The notes under the pieces were generated by a model that was not told the DNA's origin, made no database searches, and saw only the letters and a program-made list of their open reading frames with translations. 64,000 bases of DNA. It comes from Modestobacter sp. VKM Ac-2985. Lineage in GTDB: Bacteria; Actinomycetota; Actinomycetes; Mycobacteriales; Geodermatophilaceae. How positions within the stretch are numbered: position 1 is the first letter of the stretch; every line of letters starts with the position of its first letter. The position numbers were made by a program, and so were the translations under genes. This document shows, in pieces, positions 21,411-48,709 of this stretch. Where the stretch lies: positions 1,145,613 through 1,209,612 of the forward strand of contig NZ_JAPVBI010000001.1 in NCBI RefSeq assembly GCF_026967925.1. Direction: 5' to 3'.

Positions 21411-24020
21411 TCACGTCGCGGTGACGGGGGCCGGCGCCGGCTCGGGCAGGACGTGGGCGAAGACCGACGTCGGCTCCCCGGCCTGGTCGTGGACCACCGA
21501 GACACGCACCAGCACCGGCACCTCGCTGCCGTCGGCGTGCCGGAAGCGGGTGGAGAGCTCGGTGACGCCGATGAACTCGGTGAACAGCGCGTCGACCGCT
21601 GCCCGGCCGTCCGCGGAGGTCAGGTCCTGGACGCGGCAGGCGGGGAGCGCCTCGGTCGTCGTGCCCAGCAGCGCCGCGAAGGACTTGTTCACCCGCACCA
21701 GCGAGCCGTCCATCCGGGTCAGCGTCATCCCGATCGGGGCGTCGTCGAAGGCGTGCCGCAACATCAGCTCGCTGTCGGCCAGGTCCCGCCGGGCCTCGAC
21801 GGTGGCGGTGACGTCCCGGGAGACCGACAGCACCTCCCGGACCGTGCCGTCATCGGCGGCCAGCCGCCGGGTGTCGCTCTCCAGCCAGCGGACGCTGCCG
21901 TCCCGGTGCAGCACCCGGTGCACGCCCGTGCCGGTGGTGAACCGGGCAGCGAGTTCGGCGTCCGCGCTGACCCGGGCGACGTCCTCGGGGTGCATGAAGT
22001 CGGCCACGGACATGCCCACCATCTCCTGCGGCAGCCAGCCGAGGATCGGCCCGCTGCTGGCCGAGGCGTAGGTGATGACCCGCTCCGGCGTGGTCACCAG
22101 GACGAGCTCGTCGCTGCCGCCCAGCGGCAGCACGGCGTCCGTGGCCAGCGGCTCCGCCCGCGCGCGGGCGGTGAGCAGCGCGGCGAGCCGGGGCGACGCC
22201 GGCTCCGGGCGGCCGAACAGCCAGCCCTGCGCCGAGTCGCACCCCATCGAGATCAGCTGCTGTGCCTGCTCGGCGGTCTCCACGCCCTCGGCGCAGACCC
22301 GGCGGCCCAGGCTGTGTGCCGCCTCGATGACCAGCCGGACCAGCACGGCGTCGGCGGTGTCACTGGCGACCCGCTCGATGAAGGAGCGGTCGATCTTGAC
22401 CAGGTGCACCGGCAGCGCGCGCAGCAGGGTCAGCGCGGAGTGCCCGGCGCCGAAGTCGTCCAGCGCCAGCCGCACGCCGAGGTCACGCACCTGGGTGAGC
22501 CGCGCCGCGGTGGCGGTGAGGTCGGTGATCGCCGCGGTCTCGGTGATCTCCAGGCACAACCGGTCCGGAGCCAGCCCGCTGTCGTTCAGCGCCTGCGTCA
22601 CGTCGTCGATGAAGCCCCGCTGGGCCAGCTGCACCGGGGAGACGTTGACGGCCACGGTCGGGGGGACTCCGGAGGGCCCGGCCGGCCACCCGGCGGCCTC
22701 GCGGCAGGCCGTCTGCAGGACCCACCGCCCGAGGTCGACGACCAGGCCGGTCTGCTCGGCGAGCGGGATGAACTGGTCCGGGGCCACCCGGCCGAGCTCG
22801 TCGTCCTCCCAGCGGGCCAGCGCCTCCACCCCGGTCACCTGGCCGGACGGCAGCGTGACGACGGGCTGGTAGTGCAGCGAGAGCGACCGGGACTCGATCG
22901 CCAGCCGCAGCCGCCGCTCCATCCGGTGTCGAGCACGCACCGCATCGGTCGTCTCGGCGTCCTCCAGCAGCTCCGTGCCGAAGTGCGCGACCCGGCCACG
23001 GCCCAGTGACTTCGCCCGGAGCAACGCCAGGTCCGCCCGGTGCAGCAGCTCGTCCGGCGAGTGCACCTCCGCCGTGCAGCCGGCCACCCCGACGCTCGCC
23101 CCGAGGCTGACCAGCTGCTCGGCGTCCCGGTCGGCGCTCCGCGGGGAGACGACGAACGGCGCTGCCGCGGTGAGCACGATCCGCTCCGCGAGCGCGGTGC
23201 TCTGCGCGGTGGTCAGCGGCGGCGTCAGCAGCGCGAACTCATCGCCGTTGAGCCGGACCACCAGGTCCTCGCTGCGGGCCACGGTGCGCAACCGTTGCGC
23301 GAAGTCGGTCAGCACGTCGTCCCCGGCCGCGTGGCCGAGGTGGTCGTTGATGTCCTTGAACCGGTCCAGGTCGATGACGAACAGGACAGCCGAGGACCCC
23401 GGGCAGACCGCCTGCCGCAGCCGCTCGAGCAGGAACAGCCGGTTCGGCAGCCCGGTGAGCGGGTCGTGCAGGGCCTGGTAGGCGTACTCCTGCGCGAGCT
23501 GCTCGAACACGGCGGTCACCGGTGCGACGCCCAGCCGGCCGTCGGGCCAGGAGACGAGCACACCGTCGAGCAGGTCCTCACCTGCGGCGCGCCGGTGGAT
23601 GACGGCGGCGGCCGCGCGGGCGACCGGGCAGTCGGCGGGGTACCGCAGCGTGTCCGGCGGTGCGGCGTCCCGGACCCGGCGCCGTTGCTGGAGCAGCCGG
23701 CCGTAGCCCAGCCGGCCGGTCATGGACAGCTCGAACCAGGAGCGGCTGACCAGCACCGGTTCGCCGGGCCCGTCGACGACGACCCAGCGGAGGGCGGCAT
23801 CGCGGCGGAAGAGCGCGTCGACCGAGGACATGGTGGCGCCCTCCGGCACCCGGTGGACGGGCTGCGCGAGCTCGCGGAGGGTCCCGCCGGCATCGACACG
23901 GCCCAGGTCCGCGGAGAGCGCGACCTTCAGGGCCACGTCGGGGACGGAGACGTCGGGGAGGGCGACGTCGGGGAGGGCGACGTCGGGGAGGGCGGCGATC
24001 GGTGCCGTGGTGCTGCTCAT
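21411..24020 (-). CDS. CBS-like/GGDEF/EAL/PAS/PAS c-di-GMP signalling protein
   Basis: An 869-residue cytosolic protein. A short repeat-bearing N-terminus precedes a CBS-like pair (about 45-185). A GGDEF domain (about 190-350) has HDPLTGLPNR and RLNGDEFALL, with Asn at the first Gly. A complete EAL domain follows (about 370-620) with GVEALARW, CLEITETAAI, LDDFGAGHSAL, VKIDRSFI, AEGVETA and QGWLFG. Two PAS domains end it (LGWLPQEMVG..., then LLGTTTEALP...). The EAL half should be active. PAS after EAL is an unusual order. ATG 24020 follows GAGAGGA and is preferred over the in-frame ATG 51 nt upstream. It is divergent from idi. Confidence 0.88.
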   Translation of the reverse strand: MSSTTAPIAALPDVALPDVALPDVSVPDVALKVALSADLGRVDAGGTLRELAQPVHRVPEGATMSSVDALFRRDAALRWVVVDGPGEPVLVSRSWFELSMTGRLGYGRLLQQRRRVRDAAPPDTLRYPADCPVARAAAAVIHRRAAGEDLLDGVLVSWPDGRLGVAPVTAVFEQLAQEYAYQALHDPLTGLPNRLFLLERLRQAVCPGSSAVLFVIDLDRFKDINDHLGHAAGDDVLTDFAQRLRTVARSEDLVVRLNGDEFALLTPPLTTAQSTALAERIVLTAAAPFVVSPRSADRDAEQLVSLGASVGVAGCTAEVHSPDELLHRADLALLRAKSLGRGRVAHFGTELLEDAETTDAVRARHRMERRLRLAIESRSLSLHYQPVVTLPSGQVTGVEALARWEDDELGRVAPDQFIPLAEQTGLVVDLGRWVLQTACREAAGWPAGPSGVPPTVAVNVSPVQLAQRGFIDDVTQALNDSGLAPDRLCLEITETAAITDLTATAARLTQVRDLGVRLALDDFGAGHSALTLLRALPVHLVKIDRSFIERVASDTADAVLVRLVIEAAHSLGRRVCAEGVETAEQAQQLISMGCDSAQGWLFGRPEPASPRLAALLTARARAEPLATDAVLPLGGSDELVLVTTPERVITYASASSGPILGWLPQEMVGMSVADFMHPEDVARVSADAELAARFTTGTGVHRVLHRDGSVRWLESDTRRLAADDGTVREVLSVSRDVTATVEARRDLADSELMLRHAFDDAPIGMTLTRMDGSLVRVNKSFAALLGTTTEALPACRVQDLTSADGRAAVDALFTEFIGVTELSTRFRHADGSEVPVLVRVSVVHDQAGEPTSVFAHVLPEPAPAPVTAT
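23949..23993. repeat. Three perfect 15-bp tandem repeats in the GGDEF/EAL gene
   Basis: GACGTCGGGGAGGGC occurs three times in a row (23949, 23964, 23979), preceded by two degraded copies. On the coding strand it spells (ALPDV) repeats at residues 8-27, probably a length-variable linker at the N-terminus. Confidence 0.85.
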
Positions 24021-24736: not shown

Positions 24737-25756
24737 TCAGCACGCGTTGACGACCAGGCGCACGGTGCAGCCGTCGCCGGACTCGTCGGCCGGCGTCGCG
24801 GTCAGGCTGTCGACCGAACGGCGGGCCAGCCACAGGCCCATCCCGCCGACCGCCATGTCCCCGTGCGCCGGGCCGTAGCCCACCAGCGGGTCGTCGAAGG
24901 CGGTGCCCCGGTCGGTGACGGCGCACAGCAGCCGTTCCGGGGTGCACCACAGCCGCACGTCGACCGGGGGGACGCCGTGCTCGGAGGCGTTGGCGGTGAT
25001 CTCGTCGATGGCCAGCACGAAGTCCTGGGCGGCGTCCGCGGACAGGGAGCTGTCGGCCAGCACCTCGTGCAGCGCCCGGCGCAGGGCCCGCATGTCGTCG
25101 AGGTCGACCATGGTCAGCGTCGGCTCGGTCTCCTCCAGCGGGTCGGGGACCGTGGCCCGCTGGACCTCGCGGAGCAGCTCGTCGGGTGCCCGGAAGGCCG
25201 GGCTGCGGACGACGCCGTGCTCGGTCAGCAGCCAGGGGTGGGTGGCCGCGGCGACGGCGTCGACGTCCGGACCGCCCTCGACGGTCGGGCCCAGCAGGCA
25301 CACGTGGTCGACCGGCCGCTCGGCGAGCACGTGGTTCAGCAGCGCCTCCGTCTGCACCCACACCGCCGGGTCGGCGTCGGGACCGCCCGGCCCGGTCACC
25401 AGGTGCAGCCGGCGACCGACGCCGGGCGCCCGTTCGTCGACCAGTCCGGCGATCGCGGCGAGCACGGTCGGCGGCCGGTCGTCGATCCGCTGGGTCGGTG
25501 CGACGTGCACGTCACCCGCCCCACGCAGGGCCTCCACCAGGGCGTTCGCCACGGCCTCGGGGCAGGCGACCACCACCGGCTCGCCTGCGGACAGCGCCTC
25601 CCGGAGCACGTGGCCGACCACCCCGGTCAGGTCCTGGCCCGGCCGGAGCACGTGCCCGACGTGCCGGTACCCCTGCTGCTGGACCTCCTGCTGGACCTCC
25701 TGCTGTACGACCCGCGGGTGCGGGGACGTCTGGTGCTCCTCGTCGCGCTGCGTCAC
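24737..25756 (-). CDS. MEDS-domain sensor fused to an anti-sigma-type HATPase
   Basis: A 339-residue protein. After a Gln-rich start encoded by 12-bp tandem repeats (QQEVQQEVQQ), residues about 25-195 look like a MEDS (DcmR-type sensory) domain: GYRHVGHVLRPGQDLTGVVG and PVVVACPEAVANALVEAL. The C-terminal 130 residues are a GHKL ATPase of the RsbW/HATPase_c_2 kind, with N-box AIDEITANASEHG and AVTDRGTAFDDP. It likely phosphorylates or sequesters a partner in a sigma-factor switch in response to a small ligand. GTG 25756 follows GAGGAGGTGG. It is divergent from the folate-enzyme operon. Confidence 0.8.
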   Translation of the reverse strand: MTQRDEEHQTSPHPRVVQQEVQQEVQQQGYRHVGHVLRPGQDLTGVVGHVLREALSAGEPVVVACPEAVANALVEALRGAGDVHVAPTQRIDDRPPTVLAAIAGLVDERAPGVGRRLHLVTGPGGPDADPAVWVQTEALLNHVLAERPVDHVCLLGPTVEGGPDVDAVAAATHPWLLTEHGVVRSPAFRAPDELLREVQRATVPDPLEETEPTLTMVDLDDMRALRRALHEVLADSSLSADAAQDFVLAIDEITANASEHGVPPVDVRLWCTPERLLCAVTDRGTAFDDPLVGYGPAHGDMAVGGMGLWLARRSVDSLTATPADESGDGCTVRLVVNAC

Positions 25757-28962: not shown

Positions 28963-30009
28963 GTGGCGTCGGTCCCCAGCACGCTCCCCAGCCCCACCCG
29001 CCGGACACGTCGTGACCGGCTCCGGTCGCCCGGCGCCCGCCGCACCACCCTCTGTGGCGTCGCGGTGGTGGCCGCCTCGGCCCTCGTCCTCACCACCGCC
29101 GGCAGTGCGCAGGCGGCGCCCGCGGCGACCGCCGTGCCGCTGGGCACCGCGGAGCCGTTCGCCGTGCTGTCCGGGTCGTCGTTCTCGAACACCGGCCCCA
29201 CCGTGATCGCCGGGGACATCGGCGCATCCGACCCCTCGATGGTCGGCACCACCTCGATCACGCTCACCGGCACCAACCACGGCAACGACGGCGTCACCGC
29301 CAGTGCGAACGCCGCGCTGACCAACGCCCTGGTGTCGGCCGCCGGTCAGGGGCCCGGGGACACCATCTCGGCCGATCTGGCCGGACAGACGCTCACCCCG
29401 GGCATCTACACCTCACCGTCCGCGCTCAGCATCGCCGGCCCCGTGCCGCTGGTCCTGGACGGTCAGGGTGACCCCAACGCGGTCTTCCTCTTCCAGGCGG
29501 GTTCCACGCTCATCACCCAGCCGGGCACCTCGGTCAGCCTCATCAACGGGGCGACCGCGTGCAACGTGTTCTGGCAGGTCAGCAGCTCGACCACGCTGGG
29601 CGTGAACTCGGTCTTCCGCGGCGTCGTCCTGACCCTGACGGACACCACGATGGACACCGGGGCCACGCTGGAGGGCTCGGTGCTCTCCAGCGGCGCAGTC
29701 ACCCTGGACAGCAACACGATCATCCGGCCGGCCTGCGCGACGCCGCCCTCGACACCCCCGACGACGGCACCCCCGACGACGGCGCCCCCGACGACGGCGC
29801 CCCCGACGACGGCACCGCCCACGACGACACCTCCGACGGCGTCGGCGTCCCCCACTGCGGCCGCCGACACGACCGGGGCCGAGGACGACGCCGACACCGG
29901 GGACGAGGACGAGACGACCTACGGCCAGGTCGGTCGCGTCCCGGTCGGCTCGGTCGACACCGGTGACGGCAGCACCGCAGACGTCCCCCTGGCGCGGCCG
30001 ACCCGGTGA
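28963..30009 (+). CDS. Secreted DUF3494 (ice-binding-type) protein with Pro/Thr stalk
   Basis: A 348-residue exported protein. A long basic N-region precedes the hydrophobic core GVAVVAASALVLTTAGSAQA, with cleavage after AQA at about residue 46. Residues about 55-255 are a DUF3494 beta-solenoid domain (FAVLSGSSFSNTGPTVIAGD through VLSSGAVTLDSNTIIRPAC), the fold of ice-binding and related adhesin-like proteins. A PTTAPPTTAPP stalk and an acidic region follow. The C-terminus VPVGSVDTGDGSTADVPLAR lacks LPXTG and a membrane helix. GTG 28963 is used; the class F sortase overlaps by 4 bp. An adhesive or antifreeze role is possible. Confidence 0.85.
   Translation: MASVPSTLPSPTRRTRRDRLRSPGARRTTLCGVAVVAASALVLTTAGSAQAAPAATAVPLGTAEPFAVLSGSSFSNTGPTVIAGDIGASDPSMVGTTSITLTGTNHGNDGVTASANAALTNALVSAAGQGPGDTISADLAGQTLTPGIYTSPSALSIAGPVPLVLDGQGDPNAVFLFQAGSTLITQPGTSVSLINGATACNVFWQVSSSTTLGVNSVFRGVVLTLTDTTMDTGATLEGSVLSSGAVTLDSNTIIRPACATPPSTPPTTAPPTTAPPTTAPPTTAPPTTTPPTASASPTAAADTTGAEDDADTGDEDETTYGQVGRVPVGSVDTGDGSTADVPLARPTR
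29761..29835. repeat. 15-bp tandem repeats encoding the PTTAP stalk
   Basis: Five units of the form ACGACGGCACCCCCG lie end to end; the second and third differ from the first at one base, and the last two are degraded. They encode repeated T-T-A-P-P pentapeptides, a flexible cell-wall-spanning stalk whose length may vary between strains. Confidence 0.85.
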
Positions 30010-30638
30010 CGGCTCCCGGACGGCGTCACTCGTGGCCGACCCGGGCACTGCTCGCCGTCGTCCTGACCGCCCTGGCGGTCACCACCAGCGGCTGTGCCGG
30101 CTCCGCGCCGGTCGCCGCGCCGGCAACGACGAGCACCGTGGCACCGGACGCCGTCGCGCCGGCCGCCGTGCTGCCCGCCGTGCTGGCCGCGTCCCGGCCG
30201 GTGCGGGTGCAGATCCCGGCCATCGGCGTCGACTCCGACCTGATGGACCTCGGACTGCAGCCCGACGGCACGCTCGAGGTGCCGCCGTCCGGCTTCCCGG
30301 CCGGTTGGTTCACCGACGCGCCCACCCCGGGAGAGCGCGGTCCGGCCGTCATCGCCGGGCACGTCGACTGGGCGGGCGCCCCGGGGGTCTTCGCCGAGCT
30401 CCGCGACGTGGTGGTCGGTGACGAGGTCACCGTGCAGCGGGAGGACGGCAGCACCGCGCTGTTCCGGGTCACCGAGGTCGGGCAGTACCCGAAGGACGCC
30501 TTCCCGACTGCTGCGGTCTACGCAGACCTGGACCACGCGGGGCTGCGCCTCATCACCTGCGGCGGCGAGTTCGACCCCGCCGCGCACAGCTACCTGGACA
30601 ACACCGTCGTCTTCGCCGACCTGGTGCTGCCGGCCTGA
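30006..30638 (+). CDS. Class F sortase
   Basis: A 210-residue secreted transpeptidase. The N-terminal membrane segment (ALLAVVLTALAVTTSGC) has a lipobox-like end, so membrane anchoring by helix or lipid is possible. The sortase barrel (about 65-208) has the catalytic His in VIAGHVDWAG, the Cys in LRLITCGGEFD and a C-terminal SYLDNTVVFADLV; the usual Arg position is not obvious to me. Class F sortases are the actinobacterial type, often next to single substrates. GTG 30006 lies within the stop of the DUF3494 gene (GTGA), so that protein is the expected substrate. Confidence 0.88.
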   Translation: MTAPGRRHSWPTRALLAVVLTALAVTTSGCAGSAPVAAPATTSTVAPDAVAPAAVLPAVLAASRPVRVQIPAIGVDSDLMDLGLQPDGTLEVPPSGFPAGWFTDAPTPGERGPAVIAGHVDWAGAPGVFAELRDVVVGDEVTVQREDGSTALFRVTEVGQYPKDAFPTAAVYADLDHAGLRLITCGGEFDPAAHSYLDNTVVFADLVLPA

Positions 30639-30674: not shown

Positions 30675-33062
30675 TCAGGCGCGGCGGTCCTGCTCCTTCA
30701 GCCGCACGGTGACCAGCGCGACGTCGTCCTCGGCGCGCTCGGGCAGCATCCGGGCCAGCAACTGGTCGGCCAGCTCGTCGACCGGCTCCTGCCAGACCCG
30801 GCCGAACTCCTCCCGCAGCCGTTCCACCCCGGTGTCGAAGAGCTGGTCGCGGCGCTCGACCAGCCCGTCGGTGTAGAGCAGCACGGTCGAGCCGCGGGGG
30901 ATGGTCAGCACGTGGTCGCGGCGCGCAGCCGTGGGGTCGACGCCCAGCAGCATGTCGGCACGCGCGCCGTCGAGGACCTCGACCTGCCCGTCCGGGCCGG
31001 CGACCACCGGCGGCAGGTGACCGGCGTTGGCCCAGCGCAGCCGGGTGACCCCGCGCCCGAGCTCCTCCGCCGTCTGCTCCAGGCGGGCGACGAGCACCGA
31101 CGCCATCGTCTTCAGCTCGAGACCGGACATGGCCCGGTCCAGCCGCTGGAGCACCCCGGCGGGGCTGTCGTCGCTGTCGTAGGTGATGCCGCGCAGGAGC
31201 CCGCGCAGCTGCCCCATGCAGGCCGCGGCCTCCGTGTCGTGCCCGACGACGTCCCCGATGACCAGCATCGTCGCGCCGTCGGGCTGCTGGAAGACGTCGT
31301 ACCAGTCGCCGCCGACCTGGGCCTCCCGCGCCGCCGGCACGTAGCGCACCGCGAAGTCCAGGTCGTCGCGCTCCGGTGGTGCCGACAGCAGGCTGCGCTG
31401 CAGGGTCAGGGCGGTACGGGCCACCCGCCGGGAGCGGGCGTAGAGCGCCTCCAGCAGGTTGTTGCGCAGCTCGCCGGCCTCGGCCAGCTCGGCCGGGCTC
31501 CATGCCTCCGAGCGGTTGCGCACCGTCTCCCGCCACCGGTCGAAGGACTTGCGCGGGGAGAGCCGGATGGAGTCGCCCTCCCGCTCGGCGATCGCCTTGT
31601 TGTGCGGGTCGCCGCCCCAGTCGACCGAGTGCACCTGCTCGCTGCGGGTCCAGATGACGTACTGCCCCTCGGGCAGCGGCAGCGCCAGCACCCCGCAGGC
31701 CAGCTCCGCGGGGACACCCAGCTGCGGTGCGACCAGGGGCAGTCGATCGGTGCTCACGACGTCGTCGGGCTGCTGACCGGCCCAGCGGGCCACCGCGCCG
31801 GCCACCTCCGGGGGAAGGGGGACACCGGCGCCGCCGGTGTGCCCCTGCAGGCTCACCACCACCGAGGAGGCCGGGACGACGTCGAGCAGGCCCGGGCGGC
31901 CGAGCACCGTCTCCGACAGCGGCCGGTCCTCGTCCAGCGCCGCGGCGGTCAGCCAGGCCATCGTCGACCGGACCCGCAGCGCCCGGCGGTGCTCCTCGTC
32001 CTCGGCGCGGTCGACCAGCCGCAGCGACAGCGTGGAGCCGAGGAACTCCGCGGCCGCGCGGGTGGCGTACGGCGGGGCGTGCGTGCCGGTGTAGTGGTGG
32101 CAGGCGATGAGGCCCCAGAGCTTCTCCCCGCGGAGCAGGGAGATCGACATCGAGGAGCGGACGCCCATGTTCTGCAGGTACTCGCAGTGGATGGGCGAGA
32201 CGCTGCGCAGCGTGGAGTAGGTGAGGTCCAGGGGCCGGCCGGTCGCGGGCAGGTCGACCGGCTCCAGCGGCGACGGCGTGTAGCTGACGTCGGAGATCAG
32301 CCGGATCCAGTTCTTCTCGTACAGCGCCCGCGCCTGGGCGGGGACGTCCGAGGCCGGGTAGTGCAGCCCGAGGAAGGAGTTCAGCTCGGGCAGCTTCGCC
32401 TCCGCGACGACCTCGCCGTTGTAGTCGGCGTCGTAGCGGTAGACCATCACCCGGTCGAACCCGGTGAGCGCCCGGACCGCCTCGGCGGTGATGTCGTAGA
32501 GGGCCTGGAGTGAACCGGCCCGGTTCAGGTCGGCGATCGTCCCGCGCACCGCCTGGTAGGTGTTCGGGAAGGAGAACGGCCGCGGCCCGTAGGCGGGCTC
32601 GAGCTCGACGATCAGCGTGCTGGCCGAGGGGGTCACGACCTGGCCGTCGACCGGTGAGGTGCCCACGGGGGTCGGCAGCGTGCTGCCGTCGGGGGCGTGG
32701 TTGGACCGGTGCAGGATCGCGTCGACCGGAGAGGGCGTGCCGTCGCAGTCCAGGATCAGCTCGACCGGGTTGCGCTCGCGCAGGTCGCCGAAGGCGCTGG
32801 CCGATCGGGCGATCGCCCCGGCCGGCACCGACCCGACCACGTCGGCGAGCGGACGGCCCAGTGCCTCGTCCCAGGCCGTGCCGACGACGTCGGCCAGGTT
32901 GCGGGACACCTGGCGGACCACCATGTCCGGCTCGCTGACCGCCAGCAGCACCCCCCGCGGCTGGATGCTGCCGGGCACGTGGATCGGCTCGCGCTCGCAG
33001 TTGCTCAGGTCGACCGGCTCGCCGGGCGCCAGCCAGGGGCCCGCCTGCAGTTGATCCGTCAC
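30675..33062 (-). CDS. Bacteriophytochrome with PP2C (SpoIIE) phosphatase output
   Basis: A 795-residue photoreceptor. The biliverdin-attaching Cys22 is in SNCEREPIHVPGSIQPRG. A PAS domain, a GAF domain with YPASDVPAQARALY (the DIP motif, Val for Ile) and SPIHCEYLQNMGVRSSMS (pyrrole-water His), and a PHY domain with the tongue motif LSPRKSFDRW follow. The last 240 residues are a SpoIIE-type PP2C phosphatase (GGDWYDVF, VIGDVVGHD, WANAGHLPP, LLYTDGLVE, DDVALVTV) with its metal Asp residues. Red/far-red light should set phosphatase activity on an anti-sigma-factor antagonist. GTG 33062 is the start. Confidence 0.93.
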   Translation of the reverse strand: MTDQLQAGPWLAPGEPVDLSNCEREPIHVPGSIQPRGVLLAVSEPDMVVRQVSRNLADVVGTAWDEALGRPLADVVGSVPAGAIARSASAFGDLRERNPVELILDCDGTPSPVDAILHRSNHAPDGSTLPTPVGTSPVDGQVVTPSASTLIVELEPAYGPRPFSFPNTYQAVRGTIADLNRAGSLQALYDITAEAVRALTGFDRVMVYRYDADYNGEVVAEAKLPELNSFLGLHYPASDVPAQARALYEKNWIRLISDVSYTPSPLEPVDLPATGRPLDLTYSTLRSVSPIHCEYLQNMGVRSSMSISLLRGEKLWGLIACHHYTGTHAPPYATRAAAEFLGSTLSLRLVDRAEDEEHRRALRVRSTMAWLTAAALDEDRPLSETVLGRPGLLDVVPASSVVVSLQGHTGGAGVPLPPEVAGAVARWAGQQPDDVVSTDRLPLVAPQLGVPAELACGVLALPLPEGQYVIWTRSEQVHSVDWGGDPHNKAIAEREGDSIRLSPRKSFDRWRETVRNRSEAWSPAELAEAGELRNNLLEALYARSRRVARTALTLQRSLLSAPPERDDLDFAVRYVPAAREAQVGGDWYDVFQQPDGATMLVIGDVVGHDTEAAACMGQLRGLLRGITYDSDDSPAGVLQRLDRAMSGLELKTMASVLVARLEQTAEELGRGVTRLRWANAGHLPPVVAGPDGQVEVLDGARADMLLGVDPTAARRDHVLTIPRGSTVLLYTDGLVERRDQLFDTGVERLREEFGRVWQEPVDELADQLLARMLPERAEDDVALVTVRLKEQDRRA

Positions 33063-33231
33063 GCAGTGGCCCCGTTCATCGCCGCAGTGGAGGCCCGCCG
33101 CTGTTCGACGGGGTGGTGACCGGCCGTCCCGGAGGGCGGGCGACGGAACCCGTCGGCGTTCGCGGCCACCCGGTCCCCGTCGGTCATGGCGTCGTTCCCA
33201 TGCCGGGTGGACGCTCGTCGTGCACAGTTCA

Positions 33232-34434
33232 TCAGTCAGCCGAGCTTAGGTCACCGGTGCGGTCGGCGAGTTCCGGAACCCGGTTCGCCGACGTGAGCCG
33301 CGCCGCACGGACGCCCAGGTGCAGCAGCAGCCGGTCGGCCCCGTCGGCGAGGTCCAGCCCGGTGAGCTCGGCGATCCGGCCGAGCCGGTAGTAGAGCGTC
33401 TGCCGGTGGATGCACAGCTGGGCCGCCGCCCGCTGCGGGCTGCCGGCGCAGTCCAGCCACGCCTCGGCGGTGCCGGTGAGCACCGGGTCGGCGAGCAGCC
33501 GCGCCAGCGACGGGTCCGGCCCGGGCAACGCAGCGACCTGGCGCCACGCGCCGAGCTCGGACCAGGACGCCGCCGGGGCCAGCCGGGGGTCGACGGCGGC
33601 GACCCGGGCCGCGGTCTGCGCCTCGTGCCACTGGGCGGGGAGCTCCAGGCAGCCGCGCCGGGGAGCGGCGACGCCGGCCGTGCTGCCCGCCGGGAGCCGG
33701 GCGAGGGCGGCTGCGCTCAGCGCCCCGGCCGGACGGGTGTCGCCGTCCCCGGACAGGGGCAGCAGCACCGCGGCCGCGACGGCGTCGGTGCGCGCGGGGA
33801 GCACGGCGGTGACCGCGCCGGCGCCGGGCGGCGTCCAGTCGGTGGGCAGGCCGCCGGCGGCCGGGCGCAACGCCACCAGCGTCACCGTCGTCCGGTCGCC
33901 CCCCAGGGCGTCGGTCAGCTCCCGCACCGCCCGTCCGGCCGCGGCACCGGTGAGCACGGCACGCAGCGCGGCGGACAGGTCGGCGGTGCCGGGCCGGCCC
34001 TCCGCGAGCAGCCGGCCCGCCTCGGCGGCCAGCGCCACCGCCTCGGCCAGGCCGGGGGCGGCCGGGTCGCCGACGTCGGTCCGGCCCTCGTCGAGCAGCC
34101 AGAGGTAGCCCTGCAGCCGCCCGCTGGCGCGCACCGGCAGGCACAGCCGGGTGAGGATGCCGGCCGCCGGGTCGGCCGGCACCCGCAGCGGGTCGGTGGC
34201 GTCGGCGATGCCGAACTCCTCGAACCGGCGGCGCACCTCCGGCGTCGAGCCCCTGCCCAGGATGGAGCGCGCCCGGACGGCGTCCATCGTGCTGCCCGCG
34301 TCCCCGCCGTCGTCGCCCCCCGGCTCGCCGTGCGCGCAGAACGCGAGCATCGTGAAGTCGCGGTCCTCCAGCGTCGCCGGGGCGGCGAGCAGCCGGGAGA
34401 CCTCGTCCACCAGGTCCTGCAGGTCGTCACGCAC
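33232..34434 (-). CDS. PucR-family regulator, probable PutR of proline catabolism
   Basis: A 400-residue regulator. The N-terminal 150 residues are a GAF-like region (ILTRLCLPVRASGRLQGYLW), the middle is a degenerate GGDEF-like domain (CdaR type), and the C-terminal 60 residues are the PucR helix-turn-helix (AGSPQRAAAQLCIHRQTLYY, then RLGRIAELTGLDL). It is divergent from proline dehydrogenase with a 173-bp gap, the arrangement of actinobacterial PutR activators. The start codon is GTG 34434. I infer that it responds to proline and activates the putA-like/pruA operon. Confidence 0.85.
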   Translation of the reverse strand: MRDDLQDLVDEVSRLLAAPATLEDRDFTMLAFCAHGEPGGDDGGDAGSTMDAVRARSILGRGSTPEVRRRFEEFGIADATDPLRVPADPAAGILTRLCLPVRASGRLQGYLWLLDEGRTDVGDPAAPGLAEAVALAAEAGRLLAEGRPGTADLSAALRAVLTGAAAGRAVRELTDALGGDRTTVTLVALRPAAGGLPTDWTPPGAGAVTAVLPARTDAVAAAVLLPLSGDGDTRPAGALSAAALARLPAGSTAGVAAPRRGCLELPAQWHEAQTAARVAAVDPRLAPAASWSELGAWRQVAALPGPDPSLARLLADPVLTGTAEAWLDCAGSPQRAAAQLCIHRQTLYYRLGRIAELTGLDLADGADRLLLHLGVRAARLTSANRVPELADRTGDLSSAD

Positions 34435-46376: not shown

Positions 46377-46868
46377 TCAGGTCGGCTTGATCAGGCAGGC
46401 CCAGATGAACTTGCAGTCTGCCTCGTAGTGGACCCCGTGGTCTGCGGTGAGATCAGCGATCACGTAGAGGCCGTAGCCGCCTTGCCCTGCGGGGCGTTCC
46501 CTGGCCGGTGTCGGTGGTCGCTCCGGAGCACCGTCGCTGACGATGACGATCCACCGGCCCTCGTCGTCACCGATGTGCAGGCGGGAGGGTGGTGACCCGT
46601 GGCGCAACGCGTTGGACGTCAGTTCGTCGATGACCAGGACGGCCCGCTCGACGGCGTCCTCGGCCGCGGCGTCCACGCCCTCGGCCGGCCCTGGGTCCAG
46701 CGACGAGAGCAGGAACGCCGTGACCTGCCTGCGCACCCTGCTCAGGTCGCGGAGCGAAGCCAGTTGCAGGGAGAGGCGGGTGTCCGCTCCGGCCGGGACG
46801 GGGCTGTCCTCTCGCCAGGAGGCCAGCGCCTCGGCGTACTCGGCCGGAGTCTGCGTGGGGCCGCTCAC
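46377..46868 (-). CDS. RsbW-like anti-sigma serine kinase (HATPase)
   Basis: A 163-residue GHKL ATPase. The N-box is ERAVLVIDELTSNALRHGSP, followed by IVIVSDGAPERPPTP and the G-box GQGGYGLYVIADLT; the C-terminal DHGVHYEADCKFIWACLI closes the fold. Such single-domain kinases bind or phosphorylate anti-sigma antagonists or sigma factors. GTG 46868 overlaps the stop of the upstream phosphatase gene (GTGA). The two therefore act as opposing members of one partner-switching unit. Confidence 0.87.
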   Translation of the reverse strand: MSGPTQTPAEYAEALASWREDSPVPAGADTRLSLQLASLRDLSRVRRQVTAFLLSSLDPGPAEGVDAAAEDAVERAVLVIDELTSNALRHGSPPSRLHIGDDEGRWIVIVSDGAPERPPTPARERPAGQGGYGLYVIADLTADHGVHYEADCKFIWACLIKPT

Positions 46869-48709
46869 GGTTCCCTCCTGTGCTGGCGCGGGACGGTGCC
46901 CCGGTGCAGCCGGACGGCGACCAGCGCGACGTCGTCCGCGGGGCGGTCGTCGACCAGCTGCCCGAGCAGCTGGTCGCACAGCTCGTCGAGCGGCAGGTGC
47001 GCCAGTTCACCGGCCAGGCGGTGGAGTCGGCACACCCCGGTGTCGATGTCGCTGCCGGGACGTTCGACCAGGCCGTCGGTGTACAGCAGCACCGTGGCTC
47101 CGGGCGGGAGCTCGACGACGACCTGGCTGCGGGAGCTGGCGCGGTCGACGCCCAGCATGAGGCGGCCCGAGGTCTCGGGCACGTCGATCAGCGCACCGGT
47201 GGCGTCCAGGACCATCGGCCTCGGGTGCCCGGCGCTGGCCCAGCACAGCCGGGCGACCCCGCGGGTGACCTCCTCCGCGGTCTGCTCCAGCCGCCCCAAC
47301 CCGACGGTGGCGTACGTGTGCAGGCCGAGCTGCGCGACCGCGGCGTCCAGGGAGTCGAGCACCTGCGCCGGTCCCGCCTCGCCGGTGAGCGCGATCCCGC
47401 GGAGCAGGCTGCGCAGCTGTCCCATGGTCGCCGCGGCAGTGATGTCGTGGCCGACGACGTCACCGATGACCAGGTCCACCGCCCCGTCGGCCTGCAGGAA
47501 GGCGTCGTACCAGTCCCCGCCCACCTGTCCGGCATCGGTGGCCGGCAGGTAGCGGACCGCGACCTGGCAGTGGTCGGGCAGGACGGGCTCGCTGAGCATG
47601 CTGCGCTGGAGCTCTTCGGCGAGCTGGCGGCTGCGCTCCGCCGAGCGTCGCTCGACGGCCAGTCGCTGCAGCCGGTCCAGGGCCTGCGCACACTGGGACG
47701 CGAAGGCACGTACCAGCTCGACCTCCTCGGGTGAGGCGGTCCGCTCCACCGCGCGGCCGGCGGCCAGCGACCCCAGCAACCGGCCGGCGGAGGACAGCGG
47801 GACGGTGGTCCAGGACCGAGGCCCGGTGACCTCCAACGCCTGCCGCACGTCGAGCGGCCAGGCGCTGGCGTCGGCCAGGTCCGCGTGGGACACGGGCTCA
47901 CCGGTGCGGGCCACCTCTGCGGCGGGCAGCCGGCTGTCCAGGTCGATCGAGGCGAACCGCAGCTGCGCCCCCGCACCCAGTGACGGCATCAGCATGAGGT
48001 GGACGACGTCGTGCTCGTCGTCGCGCAACGCGATCGCGCCGCTGTCCGCGCCGATCGCGGCCAGGCCCGCGCCGGTCAGGGAGCCGGTGACCTCCTCGAC
48101 CGTCTCCGCGCTCGCCAGCCGGAGCACCACCTGCGCCATCGCGGTCAGCCGGCTGGTCGCCGCCTCCCGTGCCGCCAGCGCCGCCTGCAGCTCCTGCGTG
48201 CGGGCGAACAGGTCCGCCTCCAGCCCGTCGAGCCGGGCCCAGCTGCCGTCCTCCCTGCCTTCGCTGATCCGTTCCCGTTCGGCGAGGTACTCCGAGACGT
48301 CCTCCACCCGCTGGAGCACCAGACGGGTCTGGCCGGCCGCGTCCAGGACCGGTGCACTGATCAACGACCAGGCGCGCGGAACCGGGCGCCCTGTGCTCCG
48401 GTCGACCACGTGGTACCGGAACAGCGGCATGTGGTCGGGGACGCCGTTGTCCCGGGCGCGCTCGAACGAGGTCTGCAGCGGGTTGACGCCGTCGGCGTCC
48501 AGCGTGTCCGGGGCCGGGGGGAACGCGTCGAAGACGTAGCGGCCGATCAGCTCCTCGCGGGTGCGGCCCAGCAGCGTCAGGTACGCCGGATTCGCCTCCA
48601 CGATGACCAGGTCGGTGTCCATGACCAGGTACGCGGTGGGGAGCGCGGTGAAGATCGCGGCGAAGTCCTCAGCCGTGACGCGATCTCGGTCACTCGCGCC
48701 CGAACCCAT
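46865..48709 (-). CDS. PAS-GAF-PP2C (RsbU-like) phosphatase
   Basis: A 614-residue signalling protein. A PAS domain (about 15-145; LVIVEANPAYLTLLGRTREE), a coiled-coil linker (EADLFARTQELQAALAAREA), a GAF domain (about 200-355) and a SpoIIE/PP2C phosphatase (about 375-605; VGGDWYDAF, VIGDVVGHDI, WASAGHPRP, LLYTDGLVE, DDVALVAV) are visible. It should dephosphorylate an antagonist protein in a stress-sigma switch. ATG 48709 follows GGGGGGACAG; an upstream ATG at 48784 is possible. It is coupled to the anti-sigma kinase downstream. Confidence 0.9.
   Translation of the reverse strand: MGSGASDRDRVTAEDFAAIFTALPTAYLVMDTDLVIVEANPAYLTLLGRTREELIGRYVFDAFPPAPDTLDADGVNPLQTSFERARDNGVPDHMPLFRYHVVDRSTGRPVPRAWSLISAPVLDAAGQTRLVLQRVEDVSEYLAERERISEGREDGSWARLDGLEADLFARTQELQAALAAREAATSRLTAMAQVVLRLASAETVEEVTGSLTGAGLAAIGADSGAIALRDDEHDVVHLMLMPSLGAGAQLRFASIDLDSRLPAAEVARTGEPVSHADLADASAWPLDVRQALEVTGPRSWTTVPLSSAGRLLGSLAAGRAVERTASPEEVELVRAFASQCAQALDRLQRLAVERRSAERSRQLAEELQRSMLSEPVLPDHCQVAVRYLPATDAGQVGGDWYDAFLQADGAVDLVIGDVVGHDITAAATMGQLRSLLRGIALTGEAGPAQVLDSLDAAVAQLGLHTYATVGLGRLEQTAEEVTRGVARLCWASAGHPRPMVLDATGALIDVPETSGRLMLGVDRASSRSQVVVELPPGATVLLYTDGLVERPGSDIDTGVCRLHRLAGELAHLPLDELCDQLLGQLVDDRPADDVALVAVRLHRGTVPRQHRREP

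Follow-up and report, generated by a model that had tools for sequence, protein, structure and literature searches.

We describe a bacterial phytochrome joined directly to a PP2C phosphatase, encoded in a 64,000-nucleotide stretch of the genome of Modestobacter sp. VKM Ac-2985 (hereafter the window). The protein is predicted to bind biliverdin and to act as a red/far-red photoreceptor; its output is probably a light-regulated Ser/Thr phosphatase acting on a phosphorylated STAS-domain anti-sigma antagonist in a partner-switching pathway; a red-light-controlled transcription switch is its likely function. The gene and the parts discussed first are:

30675..33062, minus strand: bacteriophytochrome-PP2C fusion (PAS_2-GAF-PHY-SpoIIE), one open frame of 795 amino acids with a GTG start
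32997..32999, minus strand: codon of Cys22, the predicted biliverdin attachment site, conserved in 70/70 homologues (coordinates computed from the frame)
30678..31430, minus strand: PP2C output module with the end of the linker (residues 545–795), assigned from Pfam, the metal-site residues and the relative Rv1364c

Pfam profiles matched, in order, PAS_2 (residues 22–122, 71.5 bits), GAF (residues 185–343, 63.0 bits) and PHY (residues 372–543, 137.8 bits), all far above their cut-offs, followed by a complete SpoIIE/PP2C domain (residues 594–788, 136.3 bits against a cut-off of 25). The 795-residue protein lacks a histidine kinase domain, and the NCBIfam equivalog for BphP histidine kinases (NF041576) reached 318 bits against a cut-off of 1040, its match stopping at residue 545. 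By sequence, the closest solved structures to the whole fusion are bacteriophytochromes (6bap, E = 1e-109), while the PP2C part alone scored best with Rv1364c (3ke6, 1e-17). Matches in a fold search were dominated by the photosensory module and were uninformative on the PP2C part. A scan for promoters and terminators found nothing. The proposal of the initial annotation, that a phytochrome is wired directly to a PP2C domain, is thus borne out.

The residues expected of both modules were checked in an alignment of 70 proteins, comprising the query and 69 sequences from our genome collection. All of the following were present in 70/70: Cys22, Tyr208, Asp239/Pro241 of the D-I/V-P block in the GAF domain, Ser289/Pro290/His292/Tyr295 of the SPxH block, and Pro503/Arg504/Ser506/Phe507 of the PRxSF motif in the PHY tongue. 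The motifs picked out initially (Cys22, DVP, SPIHCEY and PRKSF) correspond to these conserved sites. The PP2C acidic residues Asp586, Asp589, Asp604, Asp732, Asp779 and Asp780 were likewise found in 70/70; from knowledge of the PP2C family, we take D586, D604, D732, D779 and D780 to be the metal-coordinating residues. All checked metal-site acidic residues being invariant, we rejected loss of catalytic residues, and the phosphatase domain looks intact, as first annotated. By its domains and motifs, the fusion is a predicted biliverdin-binding, photoconverting PAS-GAF-PHY bacteriophytochrome and, by its output domain and metal site, a SpoIIE/RsbU-type PPM (PP2C) phosphatase with predicted activity. 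At the end of the PAS domain lies a fast-evolving insert (residues 123–147; 32622–32696, minus strand) that varies in length even within the window protein's own family and is missing in other genera.

The same full-length fusion is intact in 17/18 good-quality Modestobacter genomes, and we therefore discarded the idea that it arose by chance or through a frameshift in the assembly. The exception (G020, apparently Modestobacter sp. DSM 44400; locus L078, contig C70) carries a copy in which a stop and a shift of frame break the gene at about residues 505–516, reflecting either decay or an assembly error. The nearest named homologues, with 95–96% protein identity, come from Modestobacter isolates. 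Modestobacter muralis has an apparent second phytochrome-PP2C copy, split over two contigs (L077, L101). Among 395 genomes sampled evenly across the class, full-length fusions were sporadic, numbering about 30, and an even sample of the phylum Actinomycetota yielded one fusion in another class (G053).

In the mechanism we propose, the early steps are established for the families concerned. Biliverdin would attach to Cys22, light would flip its D ring and the PHY tongue would then refold; the change would travel down a helix at residues 523–558 and alter the packing of the dimer's two PP2C domains, switching their activity. The substrate of the phosphatase would be a phosphorylated STAS protein whose gene lies elsewhere in the genome; once dephosphorylated, this protein would capture an RsbW-type kinase and so free a sigma factor. 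Light might switch the pathway either on or off.

Candidate partners of the phosphatase

The initial annotation named a sigma-factor switch as the probable output and two RsbW-type kinases of the window as natural partners. The relevant genes of the window are:

24737..25756, minus strand: MEDS-HATPase_c_2 protein, an RsbA-family anti-sigma protein and possible partner (RsbA-family score 193.4 bits against a cut-off of 210)
46377..46868, minus strand: RsbW-type ATPase directly behind another PP2C, probably the partner of that PP2C (46865–48709)
33232..34434, minus strand: PucR-type HTH regulator, a syntenic upstream neighbour and at most a possible member of the system (Pfam, neighbourhoods)

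Both kinase-like genes exist as claimed, but neither is convincingly tied to the phytochrome. The ATPase at 46377–46868 is most simply read as serving the PAS-GAF-PP2C protein encoded directly before it. The gene at 24737–25756 lies five genes and about 5 kb from the fusion, and genes like it are found close to the phytochrome, at a distance of two to seven genes, in just part of Modestobacter and in Klenkia and nowhere else; it may nonetheless be a partner. The window contains no STAS gene, the nearest lying about 60 kb from the fusion. With STAS genes missing there and one RsbW-type ATPase tied to the other PP2C, a dedicated phytochrome partner within the window is not supported. The window also encodes a GGDEF-EAL-PAS protein (21411–24020, minus strand).

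Related loci provide the main support for a partner-switching output. For fusions outside the bphO-type Geodermatophilaceae loci (named for the upstream bphO gene described below), neighbourhoods were read from our own gene calls and profiles, with 13 of the small STAS/RsbW proteins confirmed by Pfam. STAS and/or RsbW-type genes stand beside the fusion in at least seven genera, in varied orders and orientations. In Luteimicrobium xylanilyticum (L087), a STAS gene, an RsbW-type ATPase gene and the phytochrome-PP2C gene form one operon with a 4-bp overlap, and in Aeromicrobium-type genomes (L091, L153, L154) a STAS gene lies directly 3' of the fusion, again with a 4-bp overlap in the gene calls. 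Other arrangements comprise STAS and RsbW downstream of the fusion (L155), an adjoining STAS-RsbW-STAS set (L165, L166), converging STAS/RsbW genes (L169, L173) and, in another class, bphO upstream of the fusion with a divergent STAS-RsbW pair (L149). A Blastococcus genome (G771, Geodermatophilaceae) carries a bphO-type copy together with a second, divergent phytochrome-PP2C (L177) that has a STAS gene 10 bp upstream and a divergent RsbW gene. STAS or small RsbW genes occupied 18/178 slots up to two genes from a fusion, 1/80 slots four genes away and 0/172 slots at five genes or more (near versus far, Fisher p = 5e-6, with loci of the same genus not being independent). Many fusions elsewhere have neither STAS/RsbW nor heme oxygenase genes adjoining, and none of the Geodermatophilaceae bphO-type loci has a STAS gene beside the fusion. 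Of the possible outputs, a sigma-factor-type switch has the best support, because several other genera have STAS/RsbW genes adjoining related fusions; that part of the initial annotation stands on evidence from relatives rather than from the window. In Motilibacter (L174, L178), a neighbour of 742–746 amino acids that clusters with GGDEF-EAL proteins lies within about 100 bp behind the fusion on the same strand, which hints at a c-di-GMP link.

The window genome carries one phytochrome, 16 SpoIIE-domain hits, 11 STAS hits and one strong heme oxygenase. With 16 SpoIIE-domain hits, the partner may be shared. We tentatively entertain a variant of the main explanation in which the phosphatase feeds a hub common to other SpoIIE-domain proteins, light being one of many inputs to a general stress response. 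The surplus of SpoIIE over STAS hits favours such a hub, as does the PP2C domain of the fusion, which shares 61% identity with one resident PP2C and belongs to one clade with several such PP2Cs.

A target other than a STAS protein seems unlikely. The light-regulated phosphatase might act on another Ser/Thr phosphoprotein or regulate an ATPase domain directly, for example in c-di-GMP signalling, and the lack of a STAS gene near the window fusion, the GGDEF-EAL-like gene of Motilibacter and the fact that some resident PP2Cs closest to the PP2C of the fusion are fused to or beside HATPase genes, not STAS genes, would all suit it. Against it, STAS/RsbW genes recur as immediate neighbours in several genera in differing order and orientation, and the best-scoring solved relative of the PP2C by sequence, Rv1364c, is a phosphatase-kinase-STAS fusion (PMC12143880). 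We thus retain dephosphorylation of a STAS antagonist as the probable output.

Chromophore supply

In 55/60 Geodermatophilaceae loci, a gene encoding about 210 amino acids lies directly upstream of the phytochrome, mostly with a 4-bp overlap. Three members of this gene family scored 28.3, 22.9 and 16.4 bits with the Pfam heme oxygenase profile, just above or near the cut-off (the last from a Nocardioidaceae genome), and the product matches HemO and pa-HO in the PDB. These matches are weak but consistent, and we read the gene as a putative bphO. It is missing at five loci, those of the window and four close relatives, and two positions in the window genome bear on this:

33063..33231, no strand: 169-bp gap where relatives have bphO, with no remnant found
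C1:304355-304957: HmuO-type heme oxygenase of the window genome, the predicted biliverdin source

Whole-genome searches found no bphO in the window genome or in G002, G006, G017, G018 and G019. Exactly these six genomes encode an unlinked HmuO-type heme oxygenase (193–199 bits), which occurs in only 2/12 good genomes with bphO (Fisher p = 0.0015, although the phytochromes of these six genomes are the most alike and the six are probably one clade, so that a single evolutionary event may underlie the association). At least one heme oxygenase was present in 18/18 good Modestobacter genomes. Inspection by eye revealed no recognizable heme-uptake cluster around the HmuO-type gene of the window genome. 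The operonic bphO has been lost in the window's clade, and the unlinked HmuO-type enzyme most likely took over biliverdin supply.

The phytochrome of this clade is still under purifying selection, with dN/dS of 0.20–0.29 overall and 0.20–0.31 in the photosensor, the PP2C being similar. The Cys, GAF and tongue residues are kept in 5/5 members. Absence of bphO from the window genome and its close relatives might indicate that photoreceptor function was lost, leaving mainly apoprotein with a PP2C that is constitutive or senses something else; this we consider very improbable, given that Cys22 and every pocket residue are kept, that the photosensor is constrained as above and that a strong HmuO-type heme oxygenase, lacking in most bphO-bearing Modestobacter, is encoded in these genomes.

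Between the phytochrome gene and a flavoprotein gene lie two overlapping genes (28963–30638, plus strand), the first for an ice-binding-like protein (PF11999) and the second for a sortase. The bphO-less clade and L075 share this pair, which most relatives lack at the site.

Linker and history of the output domain

31389..31496, minus strand: predicted uninterrupted helix joining PHY to PP2C (residues 523–558), from an AlphaFold2 model and the near-constant PRxSF-to-GGDW spacing

In the AlphaFold2 model (a monomer with mean pLDDT of 79 and low confidence in the tongue, residues 478–506), helix 523–558 extends from PHY into the first part of the PP2C module. The distance from PRxSF to GGDW is 81 residues in 55/58 fusions; two others have 80, and L185 has 96. 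The linker shows a periodicity of about 3.6 residues per turn that is merely suggestive, with 154/5000 shuffles equally strong, and no clean heptad pattern was found in it; sequences of family f92 have prolines near position 542. Fixed spacing and the modelled helix would fit both the helical-linker mechanism of RsbU, where activation through a coiled-coil/helical linker has been shown and is proposed for other sensors (PMC12143880), and the constraint on linker length described for phytochrome-diguanylate cyclases (PMC9587094).

The two halves of the protein appear to have different histories. In a photosensor tree, all fusions but L185 form one group apart from the sampled histidine-kinase phytochromes (support 98/90), with the family of the window protein inside. 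The PP2C tree places the bphO-type phytochromes elsewhere, among ordinary PP2Cs from Geodermatophilaceae and other actinobacteria, and one common origin for the phytochrome PP2C domains as a whole was rejected (AU p = 0.018; 8e-12 with a broader outside PP2C set). In line with this, the PP2C domain of the fusion shares 58–61% identity with PP2Cs outside phytochromes, in its own genome and in others, but only 36–41% with the phytochrome PP2Cs of G407, G583 and G441. The domain trees give no direction of transfer. L185, with a linker 15 residues longer, falls outside the main fusion clade in both trees and is possibly an independent fusion, its long branch making the placement uncertain.

The bphO-type family thus appears to have exchanged its output domain without any change in the 81-residue spacing from tongue to active site. 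That constancy fits a linker constraint but is suggestive and not proof, because recombination inside the homologous domain would by itself keep the spacing. On balance, we lean towards a history in which a Geodermatophilaceae ancestor kept the photosensor and spacing and swapped the PP2C, by exchange or gene conversion with an ordinary resident type, which would connect light with another sigma-factor partner; at a later point, one Modestobacter clade swapped its operonic biliverdin enzyme for the unlinked HmuO-type one. If true, both chromophore supply and output would have been swapped naturally around an intact light switch, and the unchanged spacing would fit an exchangeable helical connector between sensors and PPM phosphatases. 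Because of the PP2C exchange, the partner suggested by other genera may not carry over to the bphO-type family.

Relation to known systems

The phytochrome-PP2C architecture is already known, and the window protein adds a member. SpoIIE/PPM is named among bacteriophytochrome outputs in a figure legend (Fig. 2) of a 2022 paper, which mentions light control of phosphatase activity in general terms (PMC9587094). The proteins of that category share the PAS-GAF-PHY module joined directly to a phosphatase domain and are listed there without being studied. The literature we searched, whose incomplete coverage may have missed earlier reports, held no functional study or characterized member of the phytochrome-SpoIIE/PPM class, and we saw no description there of the operon evidence, the heme oxygenase replacement or the PP2C exchange proposed here. 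Phytochrome outputs studied in the literature found are mainly kinases and cyclases. A phytochrome-PP2C linked to STAS/RsbW in other genera would be a directly testable means by which red light could reach a sigma-factor switch in soil and rock bacteria that do not photosynthesize. A natural fusion of this kind could also serve as a ready-made red-light phosphatase for optogenetics.

Among characterized proteins, Stigmatella aurantiaca BphP (6bap) has the same photosensory module, Cys, GAF and tongue motifs but a histidine kinase output; with a PP2C in its place, the window protein is not expected to use a response regulator. PadC, representing the phytochrome-activated diguanylate cyclases, combines the same photosensor with a length-constrained helical linker, its output making c-di-GMP. 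The sigma-B/sigma-F PPMs RsbU, RsbP and Rv1364c have in common with the window protein an intact metal site, a helical linker from a dimeric sensor and a probable STAS substrate. The input of the window protein is a phytochrome, in contrast to the RsbT-binding or PAS modules of RsbU and RsbP, and the fused kinase and STAS domains of Rv1364c (PMC12143880) are absent from it. Finally, YtvA with the stressosome, and the red-light effects of RsbP on sigma-B, likewise lead from light to a partner-switching sigma pathway (PMC3019169). Light enters those systems through LOV/stressosome or RsbP/Q, whereas in the window protein the predicted photoreceptor and phosphatase are one polypeptide.
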